DNA of 64,000 nt, taken from Dongia sedimenti (GTDB lineage Bacteria > Pseudomonadota > Alphaproteobacteria > Dongiales > Dongiaceae). Below the pieces are notes generated by a model. The model was given only the letters and a program-made list of their open reading frames with translations, made no database searches and was not told the origin of the DNA. Shown here piece after piece: positions 87 through 17,077 of this stretch. The stretch spans positions 1 through 64,000 of the forward strand of contig JAUYVI010000007.1 in the NCBI GenBank assembly GCA_030715195.1, in the 5' to 3' direction. Numbering within the stretch: the first letter of the stretch is position 1; each line of letters opens with the position of its first letter. The position numbers and the translations under genes are program-made.

Positions 87-1559
87 CTACAGCGCGGCTG
101 CGATGTATTTGGTTTCCAGGAATTCATAGATCCCCTCGGTGCCGCCCTCGCGGCCGAGACCGCTCTGCTTGACGCCGCCGAACGGCGCCGCCGGATCGGA
201 GACGAGTCCGCGGTTGAGCGCGATCATCCCGGATTCGATCCGCCGCGCCACCTTGAGGCCGCGCCCGATGTCGCGGGTGAAGATATAGGCGGAGAGGCCG
301 TATTCGGTGTCGTTGGCGCGGGCGATCGCCTCGTCGTCGGTGTCGAAGCGGCAGAGCGCCGCGACCGGGCCGAAGATCTCCTCACGGATCATCTCGGCTT
401 CGGCCGGTACTTCCGAGAGCACGGTCGGCGGATAGTAGAAGCCCTTCCGGTCTGGCCTTTGCCCACCGCAGAGCAGCTTGGCGCCGCGCGCCTTCGCGTC
501 CTCGACCAGGTGGCCGATCTTGGCGACTGCGGCGGCAGAGACCATCGGGCCGCATTCGGTTTCTGGCGCGGTCCCGGGTCCGACCGCGAGTGCCGCCATA
601 CGGCCGGTGAGCCGAGCCGCGAACGCGTCGTAGATCGCCGACTGCACATAGATGCGGTTGGCGGCGGTGCAGGCTTGCCCGGCATTGCGCATCTTGGCGA
701 GCATCACGCCCTCGATCGCGGTGTCGAGATCGGCATCGTCGAACACGATGACCGGCGCATTGCCGCCGAGCTCCATCGAGCAGCTGATCACGGTCTTCGC
801 CGCCTCGGCCAGCAAGGTGCGGCCGACGCCGGTCGAGCCGGTGAAGGACAGCTTGCGCACGCGCGGATCGGCCAGCATCGCGCCGATCACCGGGCCGGGC
901 TTGCGGGTGGTCAGCACGTTGATGACGCCCGCCGGCACGCCCGCCTCCTCGCAGAGCGCCGCCATGGCATAGGCGGTGAGGGGAGTCTCGGTCGCGGGCT
1001 TCAGGATCACCGTGCAGCCGGCGGCCAGCGCCGGGCCGATCTTCCGGGTCGCCATGGCGGCCGGGAAGTTCCAGGGCGTGATCAGCACGCAGATGCCGAT
1101 CGGCTGGTGGTCGACGATAATGCGGTTGGTGCCCGCGGGCGCGGTCATCAGGTCGCCGCGGATCCGCACCGCCTCCTCGGCGTTCCAGCGGAAGAACTCC
1201 GCCGCATAGGCGACCTCGCCGCGCGCATCGCGCAAGGCTTTGCCGTTCTCGAGCGAGATCAGCACCGCCAGTTCCTCGGCGCGCGCGGTCATCAGCTCGA
1301 AGCAGCGGCGCAGAATCTCCGAGCGCCGGCGCGGCGGGGTCGCGGCCCAGCCGGCCGCCGCCTGATCGGCGGCTTCGACCGCCGCGGCGGCGTCTTCCAG
1401 CGTCGCGTCCGGGACCTCGGCGAGCACGCCCTCGGTCGCCGGGTCGAGCACCGGGATCGTGCCGCCGCCGGTCGCGGCGCGCCAAGTGCCGCCGATGTAG
1501 AGGCCGCGCGCGGCCTTGAACGAATCCACCGGGTTGGTGGCCGGATTGCTGCGGTCCAT
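87..1559 (-). CDS. NAD(P)-dependent aldehyde dehydrogenase, succinate-semialdehyde dehydrogenase type
   Basis: Cytosolic aldehyde dehydrogenase of about 490 residues, the usual family length. It shows the catalytic-glutamate motif MELGGNAP, the catalytic-cysteine motif [12 protein letters not shown] (close to the GabD group) and the cofactor-loop motif FTGSTGVG. An upstream in-frame ATG at 1610 exists, but the ATG at 1559 is preferred: it follows an AGGAG box and lies 10 bases after the stop of the alcohol dehydrogenase, and the extra N-terminal 17 residues look non-coding. It is the second gene of a two-gene unit with the Fe-dependent alcohol dehydrogenase. Together they could oxidise a hydroxy acid to its semialdehyde and then to the acid, for example 4-hydroxybutyrate to succinate. 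The family is clear; the substrate is inference. Confidence 0.9.
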
Positions 1560-1569
1560 GATGGGCTCC

Positions 1570-2808
1570 TTACTGGGCGGCGGCGTTGAGATCGCCGCGA
1601 TAGGCGGCATCGAGGAAGTGCTTCATGCCGTCGAGATCGATCGGCCGCGGGTTGTTCTTGATCAGCCGGCCGATGCCGATCGCGGACTCCGCGGTCCAGG
1701 CGATCTTGTCTTCCGGCAGGCCCAGCGCGTTGAGATCGGCGGGAATGCCGATCGCCGCGAACAGCCGCGCGACTTCGCGGATCGCCATATGCGACAGCTC
1801 TTCGGTCGAATGGCGCGCCGGGTCGGCGCCGAGCGCCACCGCGACTTCCGCCATCTCGGCCATCGCCGGGACGCGGTTGTAGCTCATGGCATAGGGGAGG
1901 ATTGCCGCGACGCCGATGCCATGCGCGGTGTGGGTCAGGGCGCCGATCGGATATTGCACCGCATGGGCGAGCGAGGTTCCCGCGGTGCCGAAGGCGCAGC
2001 CGGCGGCCAGCGCGCCCTGCATCATGTCGGCGCGCGCCTGGCGATCGCCGCCATTCGCGCAGGCCTTCTCCAGGCTGCGGCCGATCAGCGTGATCGCGCG
2101 AAGGGCAAAGACGTCGCTGAAGCCGTTCTTGCCGACGAAGACGTGCTGCTGCGCCAGCGCGCCGTCGGGCACGCGGCGGAACGCGGTGAAAGCCTCGATC
2201 GCGTGGGTCAGCGCATCCGCGCCGGCGATGGCCGTCAGCTTCGGCGGGCAGGTCCAGGTCAGCACCGGATCGCAGATCGCCGCCGCCGGAATCATGTACG
2301 GGCTCGAGATGCCGACCTTCAGCGTGCGCTCGGAATCCGAGACCACCGCGACCGGCGTCACTTCGGATCCGGTGCCGGCCGTGGTGGGGATCGCGACCAC
2401 CGGCAGCATGCGCGACGGAATCTTGAACTCGCCGTAATAGTCTTCGAGTTTGCCGCCGTGGCTGAGGATCAGCGCGGCACATTTCGCGAGGTCGATGCAA
2501 CTGCCGCCGCCGATGCCGATGACCACCTCGGGCCCGAAACTGCGCGCGGCGTCGGTGCAGCGGTAGACGTTCGCGCTGGGCAGGTCCGGCTCGACGGCGT
2601 CGAACACCTCAACCGCCAGCCCGACACTCCGCAGATTCCGCAGGAGGGCGGAGAAATCCGCGGTGCCGGCCAGCCGCGCGTCGGTGCAGACCAGGGCCTT
2701 CGATCCCAGGCGCGCGGTGACCGCGCCGGCGGCCGCCAGTTGACCCTCGCCGAACAAAATCTCGCGCGGGAGCCGCATCACCGAAAAAGCGTCTATCGCC
2801 TGATCCAT
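1570..2808 (-). CDS. Iron-containing alcohol dehydrogenase (4-hydroxybutyrate dehydrogenase / maleylacetate reductase group)
   Basis: A 412-residue group III alcohol dehydrogenase. The N-terminal half has the NAD-binding GGGSCIDLAK motif. The C-terminal half carries the metal ligands in GADALTHAIEAF, LAHAVQYPIG and THTAHGIG (Asp and three His). The ATG at 2808 follows a GGGG box on the minus strand. It is first in a two-gene unit with the succinate-semialdehyde-type dehydrogenase and diverges from a GntR regulator across a palindromic operator, so it is probably controlled by that regulator. Fe-ADH plus SSADH is the usual pairing for 4-hydroxybutyrate, but other short hydroxy acids or alcohols are possible. 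Confidence 0.9.
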   Translation of the reverse strand: MDQAIDAFSVMRLPREILFGEGQLAAAGAVTARLGSKALVCTDARLAGTADFSALLRNLRSVGLAVEVFDAVEPDLPSANVYRCTDAARSFGPEVVIGIGGGSCIDLAKCAALILSHGGKLEDYYGEFKIPSRMLPVVAIPTTAGTGSEVTPVAVVSDSERTLKVGISSPYMIPAAAICDPVLTWTCPPKLTAIAGADALTHAIEAFTAFRRVPDGALAQQHVFVGKNGFSDVFALRAITLIGRSLEKACANGGDRQARADMMQGALAAGCAFGTAGTSLAHAVQYPIGALTHTAHGIGVAAILPYAMSYNRVPAMAEMAEVAVALGADPARHSTEELSHMAIREVARLFAAIGIPADLNALGLPEDKIAWTAESAIGIGRLIKNNPRPIDLDGMKHFLDAAYRGDLNAAAQ

Positions 2809-2887: not shown

Positions 2888-2992
2888 ATAGCGTATAGGG
2901 GATCATATTTCTTTGTTGTGTCCCGCTGTCAAGTCATGACAAATCTGAGCCAGAAGCCGCCGGCAAAGGCGGCCGTTGCAAACGGGAGGATT

Positions 2993-3646
2993 ATGGCGAT
3001 CCAGCGCTACAAGGGTCTGGCGGACGACGTCTACGGGGCGATCTTCAACAAGTTGATGTCCCTCGAGATCGCGCCCGGTTCCCGGATCACCGTGGACGGT
3101 TTGGTGCGCGAGCTCGAAGTCTCGCACACGCCGATCCGCGAAGCGTTGGGCCGTCTGGAGGGCGAGGGCCTGGTCGTCAAGACGCATCTGGTCGGCTATA
3201 GCGCCGCGCCGCAGATCACCCGCCGGCATTTCGACGAGCTCTACGAGATGCGGCTGCTGCTGGAGCCGGACGCGGCGCGCCGCGCGGCGCGCCAGATCAG
3301 CGAAGGCAGCATGCGCAAGCTGACCGAGACGGCGGAGCAGATGCGCCGGCTCGACGGCGCCCGCGAGCGCCTGAGGTATTCGGGTTTCGCGCGGCTCGAC
3401 GCCGATCTGCACGATCAGATCCTGGAGATCGCCGGCAACGCGCTGGTCCGCGAGACGCTCGCGCATCTGCACACCCACTTTCACATCTTCCGGCTGATGT
3501 TTCATGCGCGCGTGACGGAAGAAGCGCTGAGCGAGCACGAATCGCTGCTGGTCGCTCTGTCTTCCGGCGATGAGCTGGGCGCGGAGCGCGCGATGCGCGA
3601 GCATATCGAACGCTCGCGCCAGCGCCTGCTGATGGCTTTTGTCTGA
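2993..3646 (+). CDS. GntR-family transcriptional regulator with FCD domain
   Basis: A 217-residue FadR-subfamily regulator. The N-terminal winged helix-turn-helix includes VRELEVSHTPIREALGRLEGEG. The all-helical FCD effector domain keeps the acidic and histidine residues (LDADLHDQI, HTHFH, EHESLL) that usually hold a metal and a small carboxylate. The ATG at 2993 follows GGGAGGA closely and gives the usual family length. A GTG at 2918 and an ATG at 2936 are in frame but would add a 19-25 residue unstructured tail. It diverges from the Fe-ADH/aldehyde dehydrogenase pair and is probably their repressor, responding to a pathway acid. Confidence 0.9.
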   Translation: MAIQRYKGLADDVYGAIFNKLMSLEIAPGSRITVDGLVRELEVSHTPIREALGRLEGEGLVVKTHLVGYSAAPQITRRHFDELYEMRLLLEPDAARRAARQISEGSMRKLTETAEQMRRLDGARERLRYSGFARLDADLHDQILEIAGNALVRETLAHLHTHFHIFRLMFHARVTEEALSEHESLLVALSSGDELGAERAMREHIERSRQRLLMAFV

Positions 3647-3978: not shown

Positions 3979-5070
3979 ATGGGTCAGGTCGAGAATACCG
4001 CGCTGAGTTTGGCCAATGTGAGCAAGGCCTATGGCCGCGTGCGCGCTCTCGAGAATCTTTCGTTCAACGTCGCCGAAGGCCGGTTCTTCGTGCTGTTCGG
4101 GCCGAGCTCGGTCGGCAAGACCACGACCTTGCGGACGATCGCCGGCCTGGTCACGCCGGATCGCGGCCGCGTGGAAATCTTCGGCAAGGACTGGACCAAT
4201 CAGCCGATCGCCGGGCGCGGCGTCTCCATGGTGTTCCAGTCCTTCGCGCTTTATCCGCATCTCACGGTCTATCAGAATTTCGCCTATCCGCTGGTCGAGG
4301 AGAAGGTCGCCAAGTCCGAGATCGACCGGCGTGTCCGGGAGACCGCGGCGATGCTGCGGCTCGACAAGAAGATCGACCGCAAGCCCAACACCCTCTCGGG
4401 CGGCGAGCAGCAGCGCGTGGCGCTCGGCCGCTCGCTGATCCGGCGCCCGAAGATCCTGCTGCTCGACGAGCCGCTCACCAATCTCGACGCCAAGCTGCGC
4501 CACGACATGCGCGCGGAACTGAAGCGCCTGCACCGGCAGTTCGGCCTGACCATCGTCTACGCGACGCCCGACGAGCTCGAGGCGCTGTCGATGGGCGAGG
4601 AGATCGCGGTGATGCGCGACGGCGCCATCGTCCAGATCGGCAGCCCGGATGAGCTCTACGAGGCGCCGCGCGATCTCTACGTCGCCGGCAAGATCGGCTC
4701 GCCGCACATGAACATCATCCAGGGCCGCCTCGCGGCGGACGGTGCCGCTTTGGAGACGTCGATCGGCGCGCTGCCTTTCGCGCGCCGCCTGCAGACCGCG
4801 CAGGCGGGCGAGGCGGCCCTCGTCGGCATCCGGCCGAACGACATCCGTTTCGCCGGCGGCGGCGAGCGGGGCTTGAGCGCCAGCATCGCCATGCTGGAGC
4901 CGTTGGGCGACGTGACCGTGGTGTCGGTCGAGACCGGCGGCCAGACCCTGCGCATGGTGCTGCCGGAATCGGCGGCCGCGGGCCTGCAGCCGGGCCAGCC
5001 CGCCGCGGTGGTGCTCGATCCAGCCAAGTTTCACATCTTCCGGGCTTCGAGCGGGCAGGTGATCGCCTGA
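3979..5070 (+). CDS. ABC importer ATPase 1 (CUT1 / GlpS-like), H-loop histidine absent
   Basis: A 363-residue MalK/UgpC-type ATPase with a C-terminal TOBE-like region (from about residue 240). Walker A is GPSSVGKT (residues 41-48), the signature LSGGE is canonical (139-143) and Walker B is ILLLDEP. The H-loop reads ATPDELEAL, so proline 197 stands where the catalytic switch histidine should be. The other ATPase of the operon keeps its histidine but has a damaged signature, so the pair probably forms a heterodimer with one working ATP site. The position next to binding protein, two permeases, second ATPase and small membrane protein resembles the glycerol GlpSTPQUV importer of rhizobia. Start supported by GGGAGG. 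Confidence 0.9.
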   Translation: MGQVENTALSLANVSKAYGRVRALENLSFNVAEGRFFVLFGPSSVGKTTTLRTIAGLVTPDRGRVEIFGKDWTNQPIAGRGVSMVFQSFALYPHLTVYQNFAYPLVEEKVAKSEIDRRVRETAAMLRLDKKIDRKPNTLSGGEQQRVALGRSLIRRPKILLLDEPLTNLDAKLRHDMRAELKRLHRQFGLTIVYATPDELEALSMGEEIAVMRDGAIVQIGSPDELYEAPRDLYVAGKIGSPHMNIIQGRLAADGAALETSIGALPFARRLQTAQAGEAALVGIRPNDIRFAGGGERGLSASIAMLEPLGDVTVVSVETGGQTLRMVLPESAAAGLQPGQPAAVVLDPAKFHIFRASSGQVIA

Positions 5071-5139
5071 CAGGGATCGTCTGACGCAAGGGGCCAAGAA
5101 GGAAAATCGGCAACAAATAACCTGGGAGGAAAGCCGAAG

Positions 5140-6573
5140 ATGAGTACAAGGACGAAGATCAAGGGCGCTTTGATGGCGGCGGGCGTTGCCGCGTCATTGG
5201 GGGTGGCCGATGTGTCGACCGCCCGCGCCGAGGAAGTGACGCTGACCATGGCGGTTCCGGATTGGCCGCCGACCCGCGTCATGAAGAAGTTCTTCGACGA
5301 GCAGTACAAGCCGAAGTCCGGCAACACCGTGAAGCTCGACGTTGACTTCATTCCGTGGCCCGACTTCTACACCCGCGTCAACGCTTCGCTGACCTCGGGC
5401 GAGAAGAAGTACAACTTCATCGTCTCGGACTCGCAGTGGCTGGGCGCCTTCGTCGAGGGCGGCTACTACCGCAAGATCAACGATCTCCTGGACGCCGATC
5501 CCGACTTCAAGAAGACGTTCATGTCGGTGCACGAGAATCCGCGGAACGCCTACTCGACCTATCCCTACAAGTCGGAGAACTACTACGGCTTCCCGCAGTT
5601 CCCCGACGTGCTGGTGAACTTCGCCCGCAAGGACGTGCTCTGCGACGCCACCGAGCAGAAGAACTTCCAGGCCAAGTACAACAAGAAGCTCCCCTGCACC
5701 GGCGAAGAGATCGACGCCATGACCTGGGACGACTTCAAGAACATCGGCGAGTTCTTCCGTCGCAAGAAGGGCGAGATGCTGATGGGCAAGCCGGCCGACG
5801 ATGACTTCTACGGCATCGCCTTCCAGGCCGGTAAGGGCTACGACTTCTCGTCGATGCAGATCAACGGCTTCATCTGGCAGATGGGCGGCGACGTCTGGGA
5901 CGAGACGAAGGTGCCGAACGGCCAGGCGGAAGGCGTGGTGAACTCGCCGGTCGCCGTCAAGGCGCTCGAGAAGTACCTCAGCATGATCGATTACATGCCG
6001 CCGGTGGCCAAGACCGGCACCATGGACATCTTCAAGTCGGACGAGTTGTTCCGCGAAGGCAAGGTGGCCATGAACATCGACTGGATCGGCGTGGGCGAAG
6101 CCTCGCTCGATCCGAAGACCTCGAAGGTCGTGGACAAGCTGGTGGTCGGTCTCGCTCCGGGAACCCCGGGCCCCGACGGCAAGCTGGTCCGCTGGTCCAA
6201 CATCGGCGGCCAGCCGTTCGTGCTGACCACCTGGACCACCGATGCGCAGATCAAGGAAGCCGTGGAGTTCGTGAAGTGGTGGCTGTCGGATGACATCCAG
6301 AACCAGTTCGCGGCCGCCGGCGGCCAATCCGCCGTCAAGTCGGTCTACGAGAACCCCAAGTACGTGACCTATCGCCCGTGGAACCGGGCCTGGGCCGCGT
6401 CGCTGGATTGGCAGAAGGACGTGTGGCACGTGCCGCAATTCTTCGAACTGCTGACCCAGCAGCAGGACCAGTTCGACCTCGCCATCACCGGCAAGCAGGA
6501 TGCGAAGACGACCTTGGACAATATCGCCAAGTTCCAGCAGAACCTGCTCACCGAGGCTGGACTGATCCAGTAA
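5140..6573 (+). CDS. Periplasmic solute-binding protein of a CUT1-type importer
   Basis: A 477-residue extracellular binding protein of the sugar/polyol class. A Sec signal peptide ends near ARA/EE around residue 30. The mature part begins with beta-strand VTLTMAVPDWPP and has typical features such as LFREGKVAMNIDW and GQPFVLTTW. It captures the substrate outside the membrane for the two permeases that follow. ATG preceded by GGGAGGAAA. A structured 190-bp gap follows before the first permease. Ligand unknown: sugar, polyol or glycerol-like compounds are all possible. Confidence 0.9.
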   Translation: MSTRTKIKGALMAAGVAASLGVADVSTARAEEVTLTMAVPDWPPTRVMKKFFDEQYKPKSGNTVKLDVDFIPWPDFYTRVNASLTSGEKKYNFIVSDSQWLGAFVEGGYYRKINDLLDADPDFKKTFMSVHENPRNAYSTYPYKSENYYGFPQFPDVLVNFARKDVLCDATEQKNFQAKYNKKLPCTGEEIDAMTWDDFKNIGEFFRRKKGEMLMGKPADDDFYGIAFQAGKGYDFSSMQINGFIWQMGGDVWDETKVPNGQAEGVVNSPVAVKALEKYLSMIDYMPPVAKTGTMDIFKSDELFREGKVAMNIDWIGVGEASLDPKTSKVVDKLVVGLAPGTPGPDGKLVRWSNIGGQPFVLTTWTTDAQIKEAVEFVKWWLSDDIQNQFAAAGGQSAVKSVYENPKYVTYRPWNRAWAASLDWQKDVWHVPQFFELLTQQQDQFDLAITGKQDAKTTLDNIAKFQQNLLTEAGLIQ

Positions 6574-6598
6574 CGACCTGACGGAACCTCGCCTGTCT

Positions 6599-6673
6599 CT
6601 CCCGTCGGGGGAGCGGGCGAGGGACCGGGCTGGTTCGGGGGAAAGCCGGCGATCGCAGGCTCTCCCCCGGTCC
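6599..6673 (+). promoter_or_regulatory. Structured spacer between binding protein and permease genes
   Basis: A short stem (CTCCC at 6599-6603 with GGGAG at 6609-6613) is followed by an 8-bp perfect inverted repeat (GGACCGGG at 6622-6629, CCCGGTCC at 6666-6673). No U-tract follows. Such elements usually stabilise the upstream binding-protein transcript or cause partial termination. Confidence 0.45.
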
Positions 6674-6765
6674 ATCCAACGAGAGCACGGCCGGTCGCTC
6701 CGCCTCGGCGGCGCCCGATCGTGTCCTGAACCGGATTGAAAAGTCACCGAGGCTTCTTGCGCACC

Positions 6766-7827
6766 ATGTCACTCACGCAGTCCGCCAGGCCAACGCCGAC
6801 CCTGTTCAACGTTTCCGCCGACAATTGGCGGCTGGCGATCGTCGTCGCCCTCGTCGTCTCGATCATTGCCGGGATCGTCCTGCCGGCCGCGGTGTCGTTC
6901 TGGCTGATCGGCGCGATGGTCGCGCTGGTGGCCGCCTCCTTCGTGGTGAACGCCTATCGCCGGCGCTATTACGGCGGCCTGCTGGTCGCTCCGGCGATCG
7001 CGGTGCTGTTCGTGATGAACATCTTTCCGCTGCTCTGGTCGCTGGGGCTGTCTTTCTTCGCCTACCAGTCGAACCAGCAGTCGATCCGTTTCGTGGGCCT
7101 CAACAACTACATCAAGGTCCTGACCAACGAGATCGCGGCGCCGGACAACTGGCATGCGCTCTCCAACACCGCCTTGTTCGTCGTGCTGACGGTCTCGGCG
7201 CAGATGATCGTCGGCTTCCTGCTGGCGATGCTGTTCGCCAAGCAGTTTCCGTTGCGGAAGTACCTGCTGATCCTGGTGCTGACGCCGATGATGCTGTCGG
7301 TCGTCGCATCCGGCGTGTTCTTCACCTACTACTACGATCCGACCTTCGGCATCCTGAGCTACGTCGTGAACGACGCGACCGACGGCCAGTTCATCCTGAT
7401 GTCCAGCAAGGCCGGCGCGGTCGCGGGCATCGTCTTCGCCGATGCCTGGATGTGGTCGCCCTTCGTCATGCTGCTGGTCCTGGCCGGCCTGGTCTCGGTG
7501 CCGAAATACCTCTACGAGGCGGCGGCGATCGACCGGGTCTCGGCCTGGCGGCGGTTCTGGAGCATCACCTTCCCCTATATCCGCGGCCTGCTGATGCTGG
7601 CGCTGCTGTTCCGCACCATCGAGGCCTTCAAGCTCGCCGATCTGGTGATCCTGCTCACCAAAGGCGGCAACGACACGATGACCATCTCCTATCACCTGAT
7701 CCGCATCGCCAACGAGCAGAACAAGACCAGCGAGGGCGCGGCGCTCTCCTACGTCATGCTGTTCATGGTGATCGTGCTGACCAATCTCTATCTCTATCTC
7801 GCCAACCGCCGGAACAAGGGGGGCTGA
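6766..7827 (+). CDS. ABC importer permease 1 (MalF-like)
   Basis: About 353 residues. Two N-terminal membrane segments near residues 20-65 precede the conserved MetI-type six-segment core. The EAA loop reads EAAAIDRVSAWRRFWSITFPYI and contacts an ATPase. I take the ATG at 6766 (MSLTQSAR); an in-frame TTG at 6736 would add ten polar residues without support. The ribosome-binding site is weak. Forms the translocation path with the next permease, four bases downstream. Confidence 0.88.
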   Translation: MSLTQSARPTPTLFNVSADNWRLAIVVALVVSIIAGIVLPAAVSFWLIGAMVALVAASFVVNAYRRRYYGGLLVAPAIAVLFVMNIFPLLWSLGLSFFAYQSNQQSIRFVGLNNYIKVLTNEIAAPDNWHALSNTALFVVLTVSAQMIVGFLLAMLFAKQFPLRKYLLILVLTPMMLSVVASGVFFTYYYDPTFGILSYVVNDATDGQFILMSSKAGAVAGIVFADAWMWSPFVMLLVLAGLVSVPKYLYEAAAIDRVSAWRRFWSITFPYIRGLLMLALLFRTIEAFKLADLVILLTKGGNDTMTISYHLIRIANEQNKTSEGAALSYVMLFMVIVLTNLYLYLANRRNKGG

Positions 7828-7831
7828 CGCC

Positions 7832-8776
7832 ATGGCATCCGGAGTCTCGTTCTGGGAGCGGATCGGCTTCCGCAGCGGCGGCGGCGTCGGCGATGCCGGC
7901 TGGGGTCGCACGCTTGGCGTGGCCATCGTCAGCCTGATCTACTTCCTGCCCGTGCTGTTCATCATCTTCACCGCGTTCAAGCCGCAAGAACTGGCGCTGT
8001 CGGTGCCGCCGACCCTGTCGCCGACCTCGTTCTTCGGCCTCATTCCCGACCAGTTCGTGTTCTCGCCGACCCTGGAGAATTTCGGCTCGGTGTTCTCCCG
8101 CGTCATGACCGCGGGCGGCGCGCCGGAGGCGACCGGCTTCGATCGCTTCTTCTTCAATTCGATCGTGATCGCCACCGTCTCCGTGCTGCTGGCGCTGGTG
8201 CTCGGCACGCTCGCCTCCTATGGCTTCTCGCGCTATCCGCTCAAGGGCAACGACACCTATCTGTTCATCATCTTGACCACCCGCATGCTGCCGGCGATCG
8301 TGGTGGTGATCCCGATCATCCTGATGTTCCGCGCCGTCGGCCTGGCCGGCTCCTATACCGGCATCATCCTGCTCTACACGGCCTTCAACCTGGCCTTCAC
8401 CATCTGGATGATGAAGAGCTTCTTCGACGAGCTCTCGACCGACGTCGAGGATGCCGCGCGCATCGACGGCTCGTCCGAGACCAAGGTGTTCCTGAAGATC
8501 TGCCTGCCGCAGGTCGTGGCCGGTTTGGCGGCGACCTTCGTGTTCGGCCTGATCCTCACCTGGAACGAGTTCCTGTTCGCGCTGCTGCTGACCGGCCCCG
8601 ACACGCGCACCGTGCCGGTGGCGATGAACCAGGCAGTCGCGTCCGGCGGACGCGGCACCGATTGGACCCTGCTGGCGGCGATCGAGACGCTGTTCCTGAT
8701 CCCGGTCTTCCTGGTCACGTTCTTCCTGCAGGATCACCTGCTGCGCGGCGTCACCTTCGGCACGGTGAAGAAGTAG
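7832..8776 (+). CDS. ABC importer permease 2 (MalG-like)
   Basis: A 314-residue inner-membrane permease with six predicted membrane segments and the EAA loop EDAARIDGSSETKVFLKICLPQ. A periplasmic insert lies between the first segments (about residues 55-110, containing FFGLIPDQFVFSPTLENFG). It pairs with permease 1; its gene ends two bases before the second ATPase. Confidence 0.9.
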   Translation: MASGVSFWERIGFRSGGGVGDAGWGRTLGVAIVSLIYFLPVLFIIFTAFKPQELALSVPPTLSPTSFFGLIPDQFVFSPTLENFGSVFSRVMTAGGAPEATGFDRFFFNSIVIATVSVLLALVLGTLASYGFSRYPLKGNDTYLFIILTTRMLPAIVVVIPIILMFRAVGLAGSYTGIILLYTAFNLAFTIWMMKSFFDELSTDVEDAARIDGSSETKVFLKICLPQVVAGLAATFVFGLILTWNEFLFALLLTGPDTRTVPVAMNQAVASGGRGTDWTLLAAIETLFLIPVFLVTFFLQDHLLRGVTFGTVKK

Positions 8777-8778
8777 TC

Positions 8779-9867
8779 ATGTCCACGATCGAAATCCGCA
8801 AGCTCACCAAGAAATTCGGCGACTTCGTCGCGGTCCGCGATGCCGACCTCTCGGTTGCCGCCGGCGAGGTCGTCTGCCTGCTCGGCCCGTCGGGCTGCGG
8901 CAAGACCACGACCCTGCGCATGATCGCCGGGCTGGAGCGCGCCACCGCCGGCGACGTGGTGATCGCCGGCCAGCGCATGAACGATCTCTCGCCGGAGAAG
9001 CGCAACATCGCCATGGTCTTCCAATTCTACGCCCTCTATCCGGCGCTGACGGTCGGCCAGAACATCGCCATGCCGCTGCATTACGAGAAGGTCGGCAAGG
9101 CGGAGATGGAGACCAGGGTCAACAAGGTCGCCGACATCCTGCATTTGCGCGAGGTGCTCGACCGCCTGCCGGGGCAGATTTCCGAAGGCGAGAAGCAGCG
9201 CATCGCGGTCGCGCGCGCCATCGTCCGCGATCCCAATTGCTTCCTGTTCGACGAACCCCTGTCGCGGCTCGACGTCGAGCTCCGGCATTCCATGCGCGGC
9301 CAGATCAAGGGCGTGCTGTCCAATCTTTCCAAGGCGACCGTCATCGTCACCCACGACCAGCTGGAAGCGCTGACCATGGCGGACCGCATCGCCATCATGC
9401 GCGACGGGCTGATCGAGCAGGTGGGCAGCCCGCACGAGGTCTTCGCCAAGCCGGCCAACGTCTTCGTCGCCAGCTTCATCGGCACGCCGCAGATGAACCT
9501 GATCGAGGCGCAGTTCAAGGGCTACAACAACGGCAAGGCCAAGGTCGTGTTCGACCAGCAGGACGTCGATCTCAGCGTCGATCCGGCGGTCGCCAACCTG
9601 GCGCCCGGCAAGGTGACGGTCGGCGTTCGGCCGCGCGCCTTCACCGTGGTTTCGCAGGATACCCAGGACACGATCGAGGCGCTGGCCGAGCTGATCGAGC
9701 CGATGGGCGCCGAGACCCTGATCCATGCGCGCACCAACACCGGCAGCGACATCCGTGTCGTCGTGGCGCGCCACAACCGGGTGAAGACCGGCGAAGTGCT
9801 GCATCTCATTCCGGATCGCGCCCAGACCCATGTCTTCGCCGAGGACGGAAGGGCGGTGCGGGCATGA
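8779..9867 (+). CDS. ABC importer ATPase 2 (GlpT/MalK-like), signature motif degenerate
   Basis: A 362-residue ATPase. Walker A GPSGCGKT (residues 36-43) and the H-loop VTHDQLEAL (His192) are intact, and Walker B is FLFDEPLSRLD. The LSGGQ signature has become ISEGEK (134-139). ATPase 1 of the operon shows the reverse pattern. In a head-to-tail dimer, the site made from its Walker A/H-loop and the ATPase 1 signature is complete, while the other site lacks both the histidine and the signature glycine-serine pair. The ATG at 8779 lies two bases after the permease stop; a longer upstream frame is a shadow of that permease. Confidence 0.9.
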   Translation: MSTIEIRKLTKKFGDFVAVRDADLSVAAGEVVCLLGPSGCGKTTTLRMIAGLERATAGDVVIAGQRMNDLSPEKRNIAMVFQFYALYPALTVGQNIAMPLHYEKVGKAEMETRVNKVADILHLREVLDRLPGQISEGEKQRIAVARAIVRDPNCFLFDEPLSRLDVELRHSMRGQIKGVLSNLSKATVIVTHDQLEALTMADRIAIMRDGLIEQVGSPHEVFAKPANVFVASFIGTPQMNLIEAQFKGYNNGKAKVVFDQQDVDLSVDPAVANLAPGKVTVGVRPRAFTVVSQDTQDTIEALAELIEPMGAETLIHARTNTGSDIRVVVARHNRVKTGEVLHLIPDRAQTHVFAEDGRAVRA

Positions 9868-10313
9868 GCGACGAAGTTCAGAACGGCCGCGGCATGTCGC
9901 CGGCGACCGCACAGAAGCTGGAATACGCCATCATCGGGATCGGCATTCTCGCCCTGGTGATGATCTTCCAGCCGTTCAGCATCGCACTCTTCACCGCCGG
10001 CAGCATCCTGGTGGTGCTGGCAGGCCTGATCAACAACCTGCTGCCGCTGGCACAGCCCGGCGTGCCGAAGCGCTCCGTCGTCAAGGCGGCGATGATCGTC
10101 GGCATGATCTTCTGCATCACCCTGCTGGTCGCGATCTTTGCCGCCAATCTCTACGGCGTCTTCTTCCTCAATCCGCCCGACCCGAACACGACGGCGGGCA
10201 AGGTGCAGCTCGCGGCCAAGCCCTGGTACATGCACAGCTTCACCTGGTCCGTCGCGATCGTGGCCTGCGTCCTCGCCGCGCTGATCGCGCTGCAGGGCCG
10301 TCGCCGCGGCTGA
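9864..10313 (+). CDS. Small integral membrane protein of the transporter operon
   Basis: A 149-residue hydrophobic protein with about four membrane segments (near residues 20-40, 42-60, 74-98 and 124-144) and a basic C-terminus QGRRRG. The start overlaps the ATPase 2 stop (ATGA), so translation is coupled. I do not recognise the family. Its place matches that of the small accessory membrane protein (GlpU, DUF2160) in the rhizobial glycerol importer operon, but I see no clear sequence similarity. It may be an accessory subunit of this importer. Confidence 0.8.
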   Translation: MSDEVQNGRGMSPATAQKLEYAIIGIGILALVMIFQPFSIALFTAGSILVVLAGLINNLLPLAQPGVPKRSVVKAAMIVGMIFCITLLVAIFAANLYGVFFLNPPDPNTTAGKVQLAAKPWYMHSFTWSVAIVACVLAALIALQGRRRG

Positions 10314-10349
10314 AATACTTCGAGAAACCTCCTCAAAGGAGCACGAGAA

Positions 10350-11096
10350 ATGAGCACCACAACCCAGGCCGGCCACGTCAACCGCATGCAGCAGTTGATG
10401 TCGACCTCTCCGGTTCCGTCGATTTCGACCGAGCTGCTGATCACCGCCGACGGCGAGCTCAACCGCGAGCTCAATGCCTTCCTGTGCGATCCGCCGTCCA
10501 ACCCGAATCTGCTGACCGGCAAGAAGATTGCGATCTGCTGCACCAACGGCGTCGAAGAGGTCGAGATCCTCGGGGCGCATCGCTGGCTGACCGAGCACGG
10601 CGCCACGGTCCATATCGTGTCGCCGCGGATCGGCGAGTTTCATCCGACGCTCGGCCTGCGCTTCCCGCCGCAAGCCGCAACCCATGTGCTTGCCATTCGC
10701 CTCATGGAGAATGCCGGCTGGCTGAAGATCGACAAGTACACCGACGAGGTGAAGGCTTCCGAGTATGACGCCGTCCTGCTGCCGGGCGGCTGCTGGAATC
10801 CGGATGCGCTCCGCATGGACCTGCCTTGCCGCAGCTTCGTGCAGGCGATGTATGAGGCCAAGAAGCCGACCACGGCGATCTGCCATGGCCAGTGGGTCAT
10901 GGTCTCGGCCGAGATCCTGAAGGGCAAGCGCGCCACTGCGGTCTGGAACATCCAGGTCGACCTCAAGAATGCCGGCGCCACCGTGCTCGACGAGCCCTGC
11001 GTGGTGGACGGCAACCTGATCACCGCCCGCTTCCCCTATGACCTGCCGCGTCTCATCCAGGCCATGGTGAAGCAACTCCTCGCCGGTAAGAACTAA
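10350..11096 (+). CDS. DJ-1/PfpI-family protein (class I glutamine-amidotransferase-like)
   Basis: A 248-residue protein with the family fold. The nucleophile elbow AICHGQWVM carries the reactive cysteine, and upstream lie the glutamate-bearing strand NGVEEVEILG and the DAVLLPGG segment. About 40 extra residues precede the usual domain start. Members act as glyoxalases/deglycases, chaperones, peptidases or hydratases, so the reaction here is open. A good AAAGGAG box lies eight bases before the ATG, 36 bases after the membrane protein gene. Its place inside a catabolic operon suggests a role on a pathway metabolite or reactive carbonyl by-product. Confidence 0.88.
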   Translation: MSTTTQAGHVNRMQQLMSTSPVPSISTELLITADGELNRELNAFLCDPPSNPNLLTGKKIAICCTNGVEEVEILGAHRWLTEHGATVHIVSPRIGEFHPTLGLRFPPQAATHVLAIRLMENAGWLKIDKYTDEVKASEYDAVLLPGGCWNPDALRMDLPCRSFVQAMYEAKKPTTAICHGQWVMVSAEILKGKRATAVWNIQVDLKNAGATVLDEPCVVDGNLITARFPYDLPRLIQAMVKQLLAGKN

Positions 11097-11117
11097 GCGC
11101 GGCGCGGAGGCGGGCAG

Positions 11118-11143
11118 GGGATCCGGACGGGGAGACGGATCCC
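11118..11143 (+). promoter_or_regulatory. Hairpin between DJ-1/PfpI and AraC genes
   Basis: Perfect 8-bp inverted repeat GGGATCCG (11118-11125) and CGGATCCC (11136-11143), loop 10 bases. It lies in the 58-bp gap at the border between the transporter half and the regulator/enzyme half of the operon, and may attenuate or terminate part of the transcription. No U-tract. Confidence 0.45.
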
Positions 11144-11154
11144 GCTCGGGCAAC

Positions 11155-11943
11155 ATGAACTTTGCGGGGCAGCAGAGGCAGGCACGCGACGAATCCCGAC
11201 GCAACGTTCGGGAGGCGGTGCCGCCCTGCAATCCCGACAACCTGCCCGAGATCCTCGATCATCTCGCTGACGTCTACTTCTATGTGAAGGACGTGAACAG
11301 TCGCTGGCAGGAATGCAACTCGGCGACGCTGACCCTGTTCAACGCCTCGCGCAAATCGGACGTCCTCGGCAAGACCGACTGGGACTTCTACCCGGAAGAG
11401 ATCGCGCGGGAGATCATCCAGGACGACCGCGCGGTGATCGAATCCGGCCGGCCGATCGTCAACAAGCTCGAGGTCATCGTCAACGAGGCCGGGCGCCTGC
11501 TCTGGGTGCTGACCACCAAGACGCCGGCCCGCAACCGCGACGGCCGGATCTGCGGCGTGATGGGCCTGACCCGCCCCGTCGGCACCACCGATCTGCTGCC
11601 CGAGGGCTATCGCCAGTTCTCGAAGGTGATCGCCCATGTCGAGGAGCGCTATCGCAGCTCACTCGAAGTCTCCGAGCTGGCGCGGATCGCCTGCCTCTCG
11701 GAAAGCCAGTTCCGCAAGCGCTTCGTGAAGCTGTTCAAGATCTCGCCGTCGAAGTTCATCAACCGGATCCGGGTCCAGACCGCGGCCAGGCTGCTGCTCT
11801 CCAGCAAGGAGCCGATCTCGGAGATCGCGCTGCAATGCGGCTTCTGCGACCAGAGCTACTTTACGCGGCAGTTCTCGCACTTCTTCGGCTTGACGCCGAA
11901 GCGCTATCGCGACCGGCTGGGCAAGCGCGGCCCGGCGGCATAG
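11155..11943 (+). CDS. AraC-family transcriptional activator with N-terminal PAS domain
   Basis: A 262-residue regulator. Residues about 30-140 form a PAS fold (ADVYFYVKDVNSRWQECN, then a DFYPEE segment and CGVMGLTRPV). Residues about 155-258 form the double helix-turn-helix, with ELARIACLSESQFRKRFVKLF and the AraC signature ISEIALQCGFCDQSYFTRQFSHFFGLTPKRYR region. The PAS domain probably binds the inducing compound. Located inside the operon, it is the obvious candidate to activate it. Confidence 0.92.
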   Translation: MNFAGQQRQARDESRRNVREAVPPCNPDNLPEILDHLADVYFYVKDVNSRWQECNSATLTLFNASRKSDVLGKTDWDFYPEEIAREIIQDDRAVIESGRPIVNKLEVIVNEAGRLLWVLTTKTPARNRDGRICGVMGLTRPVGTTDLLPEGYRQFSKVIAHVEERYRSSLEVSELARIACLSESQFRKRFVKLFKISPSKFINRIRVQTAARLLLSSKEPISEIALQCGFCDQSYFTRQFSHFFGLTPKRYRDRLGKRGPAA

Positions 11944-11953
11944 AGAGGGGCGA

Positions 11954-13150
11954 ATGCGCCGGATCTATGTCATCGGGACCTGTGACACCAAGGGGGATGA
12001 GCTGCACTTTGCCTGCGCCTGCATCGCCCGGGCCGGCGCGCAGGCCCTGCTGGTCGATGTTTCAACGGCGACACCCGACGCCAGTGCGGACGTCACGGCG
12101 GAAACGATCGCCGCGCATCACCCGCAAGGGCAGGGCGCGGTCCTCGGCCTGACCGATCGCGGCCAGGCTGTCTCCGCCATGGGCGTGGCGCTGACGCATT
12201 ACTTGCTGTCGCGCAAGGATATCGGCGCCGTCCTCGGCCTCGGCGGCTCCGGCAACACCGCGATCGTCACTCAGGCGATGCGGGCACTCCCGGTCGGTGT
12301 GCCGAAGGTCATGGTCTCGACCCTGGCCTCGGGCAATGTCGCGGGCTTCGTCGGCCCGACCGACATCATGATGCTGCATGCGGTGACCGACATCGCCGGC
12401 TTGAACGCCATCAGCCGCACGGTCATCGGCAACGCCGCCCATGCCGCCGCCGGCATGGTGCTCACACGCCTGCCCAAGGCGCGGAAGGCGAAGCGCAGCG
12501 TCGGCTACACCATGTTCGGCGTCACCACCGCCTGCGTGAACGAGATCCGCCGCCGCCTGGAGCCGGGTTGGGAAAGCTTTGTGTTCCACGCCACCGGCAC
12601 CGGCGGCCAGAGCTTCGAGAAGCTGGCCGAATCCGGGTTCTTCGACGGCGTGCTCGACATCACCACGACCGAGGTCGCCGACTATCTGGTCGGCGGCGTC
12701 CTGCCCTGCACGGCGGACCGCTTCGGCGCCTTCATCCGCCGCTCCATTCCGTATGTCGGCTCGGTCGGTGCCTGCGACATGGTGAATTTCGGGGCGCGCG
12801 ACACGGTGCCCGCGCAATTCTCCTCTCGCCAGTTCCACATCCACAACGCCCATGTCACCCTGATGCGCACCACGCCGGAGGAGAACGCCCAAATCGGCGC
12901 CTTCATCGTCGAGCGCGTCAACCGGATGCCCGGGCCGGTGCGCTTCCTGCTGCCGCTGCGGGGCGTCTCCGCCATCGATGCCGCGGGACAGCCGTTTCAC
13001 GATCCGGCCGCCGACGCGGCCCTGTTCGACGCGATACGCAAGGGCTGGCGCAGGGCGAAGACCCACAAGCTCATCGAACTCGACCTCGACATCAACGATC
13101 CGGCCTTTGCCGCCGCGGCGGTGAAGGCCTTCAAAGAAATCACGTCCTGA
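11954..13150 (+). CDS. UPF0261 / Tm-1-like ATP-binding domain protein
   Basis: A 398-residue protein with the family's N-terminal IGTCDTKGDEL motif, the glycine-rich GLGGSGNTAIVTQAM loop and the MVSTLASGNV segment. The N-terminal domain of this family binds ATP (known from the tomato Tm-1 protein), but no enzymatic reaction is established for the bacterial forms. The usual C-terminal TIM-barrel partner domain is not fused here. AGAGGGG precedes the ATG. It sits between the AraC regulator and the SRPBCC gene, which places it in the same pathway. Confidence 0.88.
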   Translation: MRRIYVIGTCDTKGDELHFACACIARAGAQALLVDVSTATPDASADVTAETIAAHHPQGQGAVLGLTDRGQAVSAMGVALTHYLLSRKDIGAVLGLGGSGNTAIVTQAMRALPVGVPKVMVSTLASGNVAGFVGPTDIMMLHAVTDIAGLNAISRTVIGNAAHAAAGMVLTRLPKARKAKRSVGYTMFGVTTACVNEIRRRLEPGWESFVFHATGTGGQSFEKLAESGFFDGVLDITTTEVADYLVGGVLPCTADRFGAFIRRSIPYVGSVGACDMVNFGARDTVPAQFSSRQFHIHNAHVTLMRTTPEENAQIGAFIVERVNRMPGPVRFLLPLRGVSAIDAAGQPFHDPAADAALFDAIRKGWRRAKTHKLIELDLDINDPAFAAAAVKAFKEITS

Positions 13151-13161
13151 CGGAGAACATC

Positions 13162-14085
13162 ATGGCCCGCGCCTATGCCTCGACCATCCTGAAAGCCCCG
13201 GTGGAAACCGTCTGGAGCCTGGTGCGCGACTTCAACGCCCTGCCAAAATGGGCGCCGGGGATCGTCAAATCGAAGATCGAGGACCGGCTCGATGCGGACG
13301 TGGTCGGCTGCGTGCGCTCGTTTCATACCCAGGATGGCGGCCATATCCGCGAGCGGCTGCTGATGCTGGACGATGCCAACCACGCCTTCACCTACAATTT
13401 CGAGAAGCCGGCCTTTCCGGTGAAGAACTACATTGCCACCCTGCGGCTCTATCCCGTCACACAGACCGACCAGACCTTCGCCGAATGGGAAGCGACCTTC
13501 GACGAGGCGCCGGGCGACGAGGGCAAGTACGAGAAGATCGTCTCGCGCGAGGTCTTCGCCGCGAACTGGGCCAACCTCGCCAAGATCATCGCCGCCAAGA
13601 AGCCGAAGAAGCCGGAGAGCGCGGTGCGCTGGAAGGGCTTCGCGCCGAACAAGGTGTGGACCTCGCGCGTGATGCGGGCGCCGGTCGAGCAGGTCTGGCG
13701 CGTGATCCGTGATTTCGCCGGCATGGGCGCCTGGCATGAAGACATCGCGAAGATGCACATGCTGGACGATGCCCGTCCGGACAAGGTTTCCGGTGTGCGC
13801 GACTTCTATTTCGGCACCGGCCACCTGCACGAAGAGCTGCTGCATCTCTGCGACATCACGCGCTCCTTCTCCTATCGCATCACCCAATCGCCGCTGCCCT
13901 GGATCAACTACGTCTCCGGCCCGCGGCTCTGGCCGGTCACCAGCAACAACACCACCTTCGGTGTCTGGACCGGCGACTGGGATGCCAGCCCCCAGGATGA
14001 CCTCACCCTCATTCCGAACACCGAGCAGAACGTCTACCAGAAGGCCTTCGCCACGGTCGAAAAGAACCTCGCCAGGAAGAAATAG
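13162..14085 (+). CDS. Tandem SRPBCC (START/Bet v1-like) domain protein
   Basis: A 307-residue protein made of two homologous SRPBCC domains, residues about 1-150 and 165-307. The repeat is visible: KAPVETVWSLVRDF matches RAPVEQVWRVIRDF, RLYPVTQTDQTFAEWEATFD matches RLWPVTSNNTTFGVWTGDWD, and each half ends in an alpha helix. Single-domain members bind hydrophobic ligands and include polyketide cyclases and aromatases. A soluble two-domain form in a transport/catabolic operon could bind or convert a bulky intermediate. GGAG lies six bases before the ATG at 13162; the long upstream open frame is a shadow of the UPF0261 gene. Confidence 0.88.
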   Translation: MARAYASTILKAPVETVWSLVRDFNALPKWAPGIVKSKIEDRLDADVVGCVRSFHTQDGGHIRERLLMLDDANHAFTYNFEKPAFPVKNYIATLRLYPVTQTDQTFAEWEATFDEAPGDEGKYEKIVSREVFAANWANLAKIIAAKKPKKPESAVRWKGFAPNKVWTSRVMRAPVEQVWRVIRDFAGMGAWHEDIAKMHMLDDARPDKVSGVRDFYFGTGHLHEELLHLCDITRSFSYRITQSPLPWINYVSGPRLWPVTSNNTTFGVWTGDWDASPQDDLTLIPNTEQNVYQKAFATVEKNLARKK

Positions 14086-14096
14086 GAAGCAGCACG

Positions 14097-14867
14097 ATGG
14101 CCGACTGGATCAAACGCTTCGCGCTCGACGGCAAGACCGCTCTGGTCACCGGCGCCACCAAGGGCATCGGTCTCGAAACCTGCAAGGTGCTGGCCGATGC
14201 CGGCGCTGACATCGCGGCGGTGGGCCGGGATCAACAAGGCCTCCGTGAAATCAAGGCGGCGGTCGAGGCGAAGGGCCGCCGCTGCGTCGCGATCGCCGCC
14301 GACATGGCGACGGCGGACGGTCCCGCGCAGGCGGCCAAGGAAGCGCTAGCCGCGTTCGGCACGGTCGACATCCTGGTCAACAATGCGGCGATCGCCTTGA
14401 TCGCGCCGCTGCTCGAAGCGACGGCGGCGGACTGGGATGCGACCATGGCGGTCAATCTCCGCGCCCCGTTCCTGCTGGCGCAGGCGTTGGCCCCGGCCAT
14501 GATCAAGAAGGGCGCCGGCAAGATCATCAACGTGTCCTCGCAGGCGGGTGTCATCGGCCAGGACAGCCACGCCGCCTACGGCGCTTCGAAAGGCGGACTC
14601 AACACGCTGACCAAGGTGATGTGCGTGGAATGGGCGAAGCACAACATCCAGGTCAACAGCGTCTGCCCGACCGTGATCCTGACGCCGATGGGCGAGGAGC
14701 ATTGGGGCAAGCCCGAGCGCGGCGATCCGATGAAGGCGAAAATCCCGGCCGGCCGCTTCGGCAAGCCGGTCGAGGTCGCCGACATGATCCTCTACCTCGC
14801 CTCATCGGCGTCGAACCTGGTCAACGGCCAGGACATGCTGATCGACGGCGGGTACACGGCCATTTAA
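14097..14867 (+). CDS. Short-chain dehydrogenase/reductase
   Basis: A classical 256-residue NAD(P)-dependent SDR: TGATKGIG cofactor loop, NNAAIA, serine in INVSSQAG, and YGASK catalytic Tyr/Lys. The C-terminus has the common LVNGQDMLIDGGYTAI end. It closes the eleven-gene operon, twelve bases after the SRPBCC gene, and probably oxidises or reduces a hydroxyl/keto group of the imported compound. Confidence 0.9.
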   Translation: MADWIKRFALDGKTALVTGATKGIGLETCKVLADAGADIAAVGRDQQGLREIKAAVEAKGRRCVAIAADMATADGPAQAAKEALAAFGTVDILVNNAAIALIAPLLEATAADWDATMAVNLRAPFLLAQALAPAMIKKGAGKIINVSSQAGVIGQDSHAAYGASKGGLNTLTKVMCVEWAKHNIQVNSVCPTVILTPMGEEHWGKPERGDPMKAKIPAGRFGKPVEVADMILYLASSASNLVNGQDMLIDGGYTAI

Positions 14868-16282: not shown

Positions 16283-17077
16283 ATGGGCGGCACGGCGATT
16301 CTCACGGTCAGCGATTTGAGCAAGCGCTTCGGCGGCGTGCGCGCGCTCGACGGCGTGAGCTTCGAGATCCGCGAAGGCGAGCTGGCCGGCCTGATCGGGC
16401 CGAACGGCTCCGGCAAGACGACCGCCTTCAATCTCATCACCGGCGTGTTCAAACCGACCGCCGGCACGATCACGTTCCGCGGCACGCGGGTGGACGGCAA
16501 CCCGCCGGATCGCAACGCGGCGCTCGGCATGTCGCGCACCTTTCAGAACATCCGTCTGTTCCGCGACCTTCCTGTCATCGACAATGTGATGGTCGGTCTG
16601 CATATGCGGCACGGCACCGGCTTCTGGCCGACCGTGCTGCGCCTCCCGGTCGCGCGGCGTTCGGAGGCAGAAATCCGCCGGCGCGCGCTCGAGAAGCTCG
16701 AGATGCTGGGCCTCGCCGCGCGCGCCGAGCAGATCGTCGGCAGCCTGCCTTACGGCGACCAGCGCAAGGTCGAGTTCGCCCGGGCGCTGGCGACCGAGCC
16801 CAGCCTGCTGCTGCTCGACGAGCCGACCGCCGGCATGAACCCCCAGGAAACCGCCGATCTCGGCCGCACCATCCAGCGCCTGCACCGGGAACTGAAGATC
16901 ACCACGTTGCTGGTCGAGCATGACATGAAGATGGTCATGGGCATCTGTGAGCGGCTGATCGTCGTCAACCAGGGCAGAATGCTGGCGTCCGGAGCGCCGG
17001 CCGAGATCAAGGCCGATCCCTCCGTCATCGAGGCCTATCTCGGACGACGGAGAAAGGACGGACATGCTGCGGCTTGA
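16283..17077 (+). CDS. livG: Branched-chain amino acid-type importer ATPase LivG
   Basis: A 264-residue HAAT-family ATPase: Walker A GPNGSGKT (residues 39-46), LivG-type signature LPYGDQRKVEFARAL, Walker B LLLLDEPTAGMNP, and H-loop LLVEHDMKMV. I chose the ATG at 16283 because it gives the usual LivG N-terminus. The in-frame ATG at 16250 falls inside the direct repeat. The end overlaps livF by 14 bases. The substrate may be an amide, amine or amino acid, judging from the enzymes downstream, rather than leucine. Confidence 0.9.
   Translation: MGGTAILTVSDLSKRFGGVRALDGVSFEIREGELAGLIGPNGSGKTTAFNLITGVFKPTAGTITFRGTRVDGNPPDRNAALGMSRTFQNIRLFRDLPVIDNVMVGLHMRHGTGFWPTVLRLPVARRSEAEIRRRALEKLEMLGLAARAEQIVGSLPYGDQRKVEFARALATEPSLLLLDEPTAGMNPQETADLGRTIQRLHRELKITTLLVEHDMKMVMGICERLIVVNQGRMLASGAPAEIKADPSVIEAYLGRRRKDGHAAA

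Follow-up and report, generated by a model that had tools for sequence, protein, structure and literature searches.

What is the function of eleven co-directional genes at positions 3979 to 14867 of the window, that is, of the 64,000 nucleotides (64 kb) of Dongia sedimenti contig JAUYVI010000007.1 analysed here, in which an ATP-binding cassette (ABC) importer is followed by a DJ-1/PfpI protein, a UPF0261 protein, a tandem SRPBCC protein and a short-chain dehydrogenase/reductase (SDR)? The original prediction, made from the DNA letters alone, saw in this set a candidate for an undescribed catabolic system, whose substrate might be a carbonyl or aromatic compound, bulky or reactive. Pfam domain searches confirmed all eleven genes on the + strand, and no published pathway for the whole set was found in the open-access literature. 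A set conserved in close relatives and without a published pathway is thus retained from that proposal; its chemistry is to be revised, the substrate being more likely of carbohydrate type and the UPF0261 protein more likely a kinase. Our leading reading, held with a confidence just short of even, is that of an operon for uptake and catabolism of a carbohydrate-type compound (a sugar, a polyol or a small glycoside) that would include kinase, SRPBCC and SDR steps. The parts of this operon are of known kinds, and no description of the whole was found. The genes are as follows.

3979..5070, + strand: ABC ATPase 1; signature LSGGE (canonical), proline at residue 197 in place of the H-loop histidine (Pfam, motif comparison)
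5140..6573, + strand: solute-binding protein, looks like carbohydrate (CUT1) type (Pfam SBP_bac_1, predicted model, Foldseek)
6766..7827 (start may be TTG at 6736), + strand: permease A (Pfam BPD_transp_1; longer form searched)
7832..8776, + strand: permease B (Pfam BPD_transp_1)
8779..9867, + strand: ABC ATPase 2; H-loop histidine present, degenerate signature ISEGE (Pfam, motif comparison)
9864..10313, + strand: small membrane protein of 149 amino acids, importer-associated (no Pfam family matched)
10350..11096, + strand: DJ-1/PfpI protein with CHG cysteine motif (Pfam DJ-1_PfpI)
11155..11943, + strand: putative PAS-AraC regulator (Pfam PAS_4, HTH_18)
11954..13150, + strand: UPF0261 protein, grouping with Tm-1 within its family and probably a small-molecule kinase (both UPF0261 Pfam domains, model, Foldseek, tree)
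13162..14085, + strand: tandem SRPBCC (START-like) protein, two domains in one protein (Pfam Polyketide_cyc2, two stretches)
14097..14867, + strand: SDR dehydrogenase (Pfam adh_short_C2)

From ATPase 1 to the SDR gene, consecutive genes are separated by 69, 192, 4, 2, -4, 36, 58, 10, 11 and 11 bases. The 192-base gap, between the binding protein and permease A, is the weak spot for reading this predicted operon as a single transcript. The GC content of the eleven-gene stretch (64.7%) is close to that of the remainder of the window (65.6%).

The first six genes would encode a CUT1-type importer with two different ATPases, forming one complete and one degenerate ATP site. Pfam assignments are those of this importer class: a MalK-type ATPase with a TOBE/OB domain, two BPD permeases and an SBP_bac_1 binding protein. 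The predicted model of the binding protein (predicted local distance difference test score, pLDDT, 89.5) has the fold of a carbohydrate binder, its top Foldseek match being 5iai, a structure that presumably holds ribitol, followed by MalE-type and oligosaccharide binders. All of the 50 matches listed are binding proteins of ABC importers, and nearly all have titles, some of them incomplete, naming a sugar, a sugar derivative or a sugar transporter. The protein therefore looks like a binding protein of carbohydrate type, for which binding and transport of a carbohydrate are predicted from the model. No Pfam family matched the small membrane protein, and DUF2160, the family of the small membrane protein in the rhizobial glycerol importer, was not among its matches up to an E value of 10, a range in which weak matches may be filtered.

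Conservation of the set was assessed by scanning contigs for relatives of the binding protein; the 80 best of 84 matches gave 79 distinct importer loci (53-88% identity to the window's binding protein), of which 51 have full context, i.e. at least 7.5 kb on both sides. Because the simple gene caller misses genes in the GC-rich DNA of the fetched loci, the presence of neighbours was scored by tblastn (E value 1e-8, half of the query covered); such counts include weak cross-family matches for SDR, GntR, DhaK and Gfo. They are also not independent, since the loci are related by descent and two of them (L103 and L129) belong to one genome; loci L151, L152 and L153 share their genomes with L052, L061 and L053, respectively, and each genome entered the counts once. 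The five core importer genes are present in all 51 full-context loci; 44 of these loci also have the small membrane protein, 29 have UPF0261, 21 PF09370, 15 tandem SRPBCC and 14 DJ-1 (13 of these at 70% identity or more). The PAS-AraC gene was found in 2 loci, both of the 51 and of the 79. Of the 289 genomes sampled from the class, only 33 have any UPF0261 match, compared with 29 of the 51 importer loci, and the co-occurrence of the importer with UPF0261, SRPBCC and DJ-1 is more than chance.

Conservation of the set as a unit is nevertheless only partial. Gene order in Dongia deserti (L053) and in a metagenome-assembled genome of Rhodospirillum (L052) is that of the window, with two additional genes: a PF09370 barrel gene that follows the membrane protein gene and precedes DJ-1, and a ketose 3-epimerase-like barrel before UPF0261. 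At these two positions the flanking genes of the window are 36 and 10 bases apart. UPF0261, tandem SRPBCC and DJ-1 occur jointly in only 4 of 79 loci (L052, L053, L061 and L079, the DJ-1 gene of the last being interrupted by the locus end), which argues against broad conservation. Dongia genomes are among the closest relatives of the window's importer. Its distribution is patchy, with a binding protein at least 87% identical in 4 of 17 genomes of the family, including the window's own, and all other matches at 35% or below. In a record titled Mycobacterium sp. KBS0706 (L055), possibly mislabelled, the importer is 86% identical to alphaproteobacterial ones.

Which genes accompany this importer elsewhere? 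Within the 79 loci, a ketose 3-epimerase-like barrel was found in 39 (identity at least 48% in 36 of them), UPF0261 and a Gfo enzyme (the latter at no less than 60% identity) in 34 each, PfkB in 31, DhaK in 23 (of which only 6 reach 60%), a PF09370 barrel in 22, tandem SRPBCC and a hydratase-like barrel in 17 each, DJ-1 in 16 (15 at 70% or more), and mutarotases of the FucU and RhaM types in 14 and 13, respectively. The best PDB matches of the Gfo neighbour are 4h3v and 6a3f, the latter of which we take to be levoglucosan dehydrogenase. Text of PMC10066097 names 6A3I, the sister entry of 6a3f, which is consistent with this identity. Levoglucosan dehydrogenase is also the top NCBIfam match of the Gfo neighbour, at 348.8 bits, below the cut-off of 650; on this score levoglucosan degradation as such was rejected. 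The hydratase-like neighbour matches 8ro4, a 2-hydroxy-3-keto-glucal hydratase, at 536.5 bits. With carbohydrate genes beside the importer, a substrate that is purely aromatic or carbonyl becomes less likely. On contig 26 of the same genome (L150, contig positions 183000-202999), another importer cluster of sugar type was observed, with hydratase-like, Gfo-like, epimerase-like barrel, DhaL and DhaK genes.

The UPF0261 protein itself, which under our leading reading would phosphorylate the imported compound or an early product, had been considered to belong to a family with no established bacterial reaction. It matches the two Pfam domains of the family at 198.5 and 295.2 bits (cut-off 27 each). 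Foldseek searches with its predicted model (pLDDT 88.5) returned Tm-1, with a template-modelling (TM) score of 0.88 and 41% identity, and 9mpy (TM 0.61-0.63, 32% identity), the latter titled as Saro_1862, a UPF0261 domain protein of Novosphingobium aromaticivorans with bound acetovanillone. Residues H212, G215, G217, G218, D235 and R256 are identical across the window protein, Tm-1 and Saro_1862, in a residue count that omitted one long-branch row (L163). MarK is described as a kinase from the same species as Saro_1862, and Saro_1862 is probably MarK. Because of the fold matches and this kinase link, and in line with the conserved residues, the window's UPF0261 protein is probably a small-molecule kinase, of a type recognised only recently. 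The statement on bacterial reactions is not supported, given the relative with bound acetovanillone and the probable link to MarK. The two-component kinase HpeHI is of a family other than UPF0261 (PMC12167813). Members of UPF0261 are known from bacteria, fungi and plants (Tm-1), according to a section of PMC5028733, and one Brucella gene, BAB2_1127, is reported in PMC2364660 among those recovered when signature-tagged mutagenesis was used to look for genes required for infection.

The acetovanillone bound to Saro_1862 would also fit the original view, in which the substrate is an aromatic or carbonyl compound, bulky or reactive, and has no sugar part. Moreover, SRPBCC, DJ-1 and PAS domains often bind ligands of carbonyl or aromatic type. 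Given a binding protein that looks carbohydrate-type and an importer whose neighbours elsewhere are sugar enzymes, we regard this view as quite improbable. Alternatively, the operon may serve phenolic glycosides, their sugar part being degraded by a non-hydrolytic 3-keto route with enzymes encoded elsewhere in the genome, and UPF0261 and SRPBCC acting on the freed aromatic. Such a route for 3-keto-glucosides, including the glucoside of a flavonoid, is published, with AtOGE freeing phloretin from its 3-keto-glucoside (both in passages of PMC10628242), and levoglucosan degradation follows a route of the same type (part of PMC10066097). Hydratase-like and Gfo genes are indeed neighbours of this importer elsewhere and are also present on contig 26 of the window's own genome, and the aromatic ligand of the UPF0261 relative fits here as well. 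However, none of the genes of the window operon was recognised as an eliminase, and mutarotase, epimerase-like and kinase neighbours require only a sugar; we regard a phenolic glycoside as an equally improbable substrate.

The history of the UPF0261 gene was examined in a tree of 61 rows, comprising genes from 19 of the 34 UPF0261-containing importer loci, the window, loci from the class sample, plasmid loci and two PDB chains. The window gene groups with Dongia genes, in a group that also includes Tm-1 and most of the genes partnered with PF09370. Saro_1862 lies outside this group and, with five other rows, is on a long branch of unsure placement. Importer-adjacent UPF0261 genes occur in three separate parts of the tree: with Dongia and Hyphomicrobiales, with Mesorhizobium, and with Rhodobacterales, Afifella and Granulosicoccus. 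Beside tripartite tricarboxylate transporter-like genes (identified by eye), a more distant UPF0261 branch was seen in L154, L155, L156 and L161, with no PF09370 match within 6 kb.

The sample of 289 genomes of the class yielded 41 places with UPF0261 (the window's included), 33 with PF09370 and 57 with SRPBCC, one below-cut-off UPF0261 match, one second UPF0261 gene fragment and four below-cut-off PF09370 matches being omitted. PF09370 lies within 6 kb of 26 of the 41 UPF0261 places, SRPBCC within 8 kb of 18, and both near 17. Conversely, UPF0261 is within 6 kb of 27 of the 33 PF09370 places, and within 8 kb of 29 of the 32 strongest SRPBCC places but of only 1 of the 25 weaker ones. The window's UPF0261 gene has no PF09370 within 6 kb; PF09370 is a usual, not a universal, partner. 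Co-evolution of UPF0261 and the TIM-barrel domain is reported in part of PMC5028733; no UPF0261-SRPBCC link was found in the open-access literature. The set adjoins Liv-type importers (by eye) as well as a sugar-type and a BMP-type importer (by annotation). It is tempting to speculate that UPF0261, usually with a PF09370 barrel and often with SRPBCC, represents a portable small-molecule phosphorylation module for importers of different classes, here joined to an asymmetric carbohydrate importer and phosphorylating a keto-sugar or a phenolic aglycone, a step undescribed for carbohydrates. We consider this possible, if rather unlikely. On contig 12 of the same genome, UPF0261 is fused behind an ABC ATPase (L033, 10353-12572) within what resembles a Liv-type importer cluster, and similar long proteins (729-813 amino acids) exist in other genomes.

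The occurrence of the UPF0261 set with unrelated importer types, together with the absence of UPF0261 from 22 of the 51 full-context importer loci, also favours a looser arrangement, in which importer and UPF0261-SRPBCC set are two modules in one operon that serve separate pathways, UPF0261 acting on a general metabolite in repair or detoxification. Against this, UPF0261 adjoins the same importer in three separate parts of the tree, and the last six genes of the window operon are separated by 10-58 bases only; we hold it to be unlikely.

Under the carbohydrate reading, the remaining genes would have the following roles. The tandem SRPBCC protein may bind a pathway intermediate and cooperate with the SDR, which would oxidise or reduce a hydroxyl or keto group. 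Among 48 SRPBCC proteins found in the loci, 8 carry the domain fused to a zinc alcohol dehydrogenase-like half (Pfam-confirmed for one). These fusions hint at a dehydrogenase as the working partner of SRPBCC, and the SDR gene adjoins SRPBCC in the window. The top NCBIfam match of the SDR is the GolD/DthD family (PRK06841), at 267.3 bits under the cut-off of 286, so that it is not assigned to these polyol dehydrogenases. DJ-1 may deal with a dicarbonyl side product. It has the Pfam domain and the CHG cysteine motif, the latter also seen in 14 of 16 listed relatives (the two remaining sequences are incomplete), and falls short of the PfpI subfamily cut-off (125.5 versus 139.05 bits). The GntR and PAS-AraC proteins would regulate the operon. 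In L033, an SRPBCC-zinc alcohol dehydrogenase fusion and a flotillin/SPFH protein beside an SRPBCC pair were noted (5706-7187 and 7786-9474), and in L167 (5115-5873) a relative of PAS-AraC (249 bits) lies beside SDRs, a distant PF09370 barrel and UPF0261.

Several observations weigh against a carbohydrate operon of this kind. The ligand of Saro_1862 is an aromatic ketone, not a sugar, and the identity of this protein with MarK is only probable. The 22 full-context loci without UPF0261 count here too, and since 15 of 51 loci have both PfkB and UPF0261, the latter cannot simply be equated with the sugar kinase of the pathway. Twelve of the 79 loci (3 of them full-context) have no UPF0261, Gfo, epimerase-like, hydratase-like or PfkB gene at all. 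Neither the PF09370 barrel nor the epimerase-like barrel is in the window operon: the genome's one epimerase-like match (56% identity) is on contig 26, and its sole PF09370 match is on contig 12, in a different cluster. Finally, the best relative of the binding protein in the plasmid collection is only about 30% identical. For the general role of UPF0261 proteins, an operon with a sugar-type importer still narrows the candidates to a short list of testable substrates.

The two ATPases were compared by motif counts on called genes longer than 330 amino acids and scoring above 330 bits from the 79 loci and the window (72 for ATPase 1, 74 for ATPase 2). The H-loop histidine of ATPase 1 is replaced by proline in 72/72, with an SGGE signature in 72/72; ATPase 2 retains the histidine in 74/74 and has EGE instead of GGE in its signature in 74/74. 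If, as we infer from these motifs, both pair into one transporter, the pair would hold one complete and one degenerate ATP site. By contrast, both motifs are canonical in a single ATPase encoded on contig 26 of the same genome. Why a transporter keeps a degenerate ATP site is a question mostly studied in exporters, and this pair offers a simple system for asking it of an importer.

Three genes upstream of the eleven, outside the span first considered, may also be relevant.

87..1610, - strand: aldehyde dehydrogenase, possibly an accessory gene (Pfam Aldedh)
1570..2808, - strand: iron-containing alcohol dehydrogenase, possibly an accessory gene (Pfam Fe-ADH)
2918..3646, + strand: GntR/FCD-type regulator (Pfam GntR, FCD)

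The regulator gene is co-directional with the eleven-gene stretch, and the two dehydrogenase genes (87-2808) are divergent from it. Of the 51 full-context loci, 4 have an aldehyde dehydrogenase gene near the importer and 5 an iron-type alcohol dehydrogenase gene (the latter in 7 of 79 overall). The top NCBIfam match of the aldehyde dehydrogenase is succinate-semialdehyde dehydrogenase, at 572.9 bits below the cut-off of 646.35. Downstream of the operon, an ABC ATPase and a branched-chain-amino-acid-type permease (17064-19701) probably belong to another importer.

How does the operon compare with known systems? The apiose/apionate pathway was provisionally set aside, no gene cluster having turned up for comparison. 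A molybdenum-hydroxylase-linked system was rejected, no such gene being among the annotated window genes; molybdenum-hydroxylase-like genes were seen near some SRPBCC genes elsewhere (L038 and L042 by eye, L051 by annotation). The non-hydrolytic 3-keto-glycoside route (LgdA-LgdC for levoglucosan; AtOGE/AtHYD) shares with the window's importer family the Gfo enzymes and PF01261 barrels found beside the same importer elsewhere. None of its genes was identified in the window operon, and its 3-dehydrogenase, eliminase, hydratase and reductase are all missing from the annotated window genes, whereas hydratase-like and Gfo-like genes are present on contig 26. The two UPF0261 Pfam domains of the window protein are common to Tm-1 and Saro_1862. 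The TIM-barrel domain fused in plant Tm-1 is presumably PF09370. That fusion (described in part of PMC5028733) contrasts with the window, where no PF09370 partner is adjacent.

The closest parallel to the importer is a rhizobial one, on pRL9 of R. johnstonii 3841 between glpD and glpK, which we take to be GlpSTPQUV with a role in glycerol uptake. Like the window's, it has two different ATPases, two permeases, a binding protein and a small membrane protein, encoded in a row. The window permeases are, however, only 27-28% identical to its own and the binding protein 24% over 268 residues, and the small membrane proteins of the two are not recognisably related. A glycerol importer was rejected on the different membrane protein and on the absence of glpD and glpK from the annotated window genes near the importer. 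The ATPases of the R. johnstonii glycerol-type importer (L174, 10753-12909) show a similar asymmetry with other residues, the H-loop histidine being absent from one and the signature degenerate in the other. The dual-ATPase layout is therefore of a known kind, and the family represented in the window is still distinct from the glycerol one.

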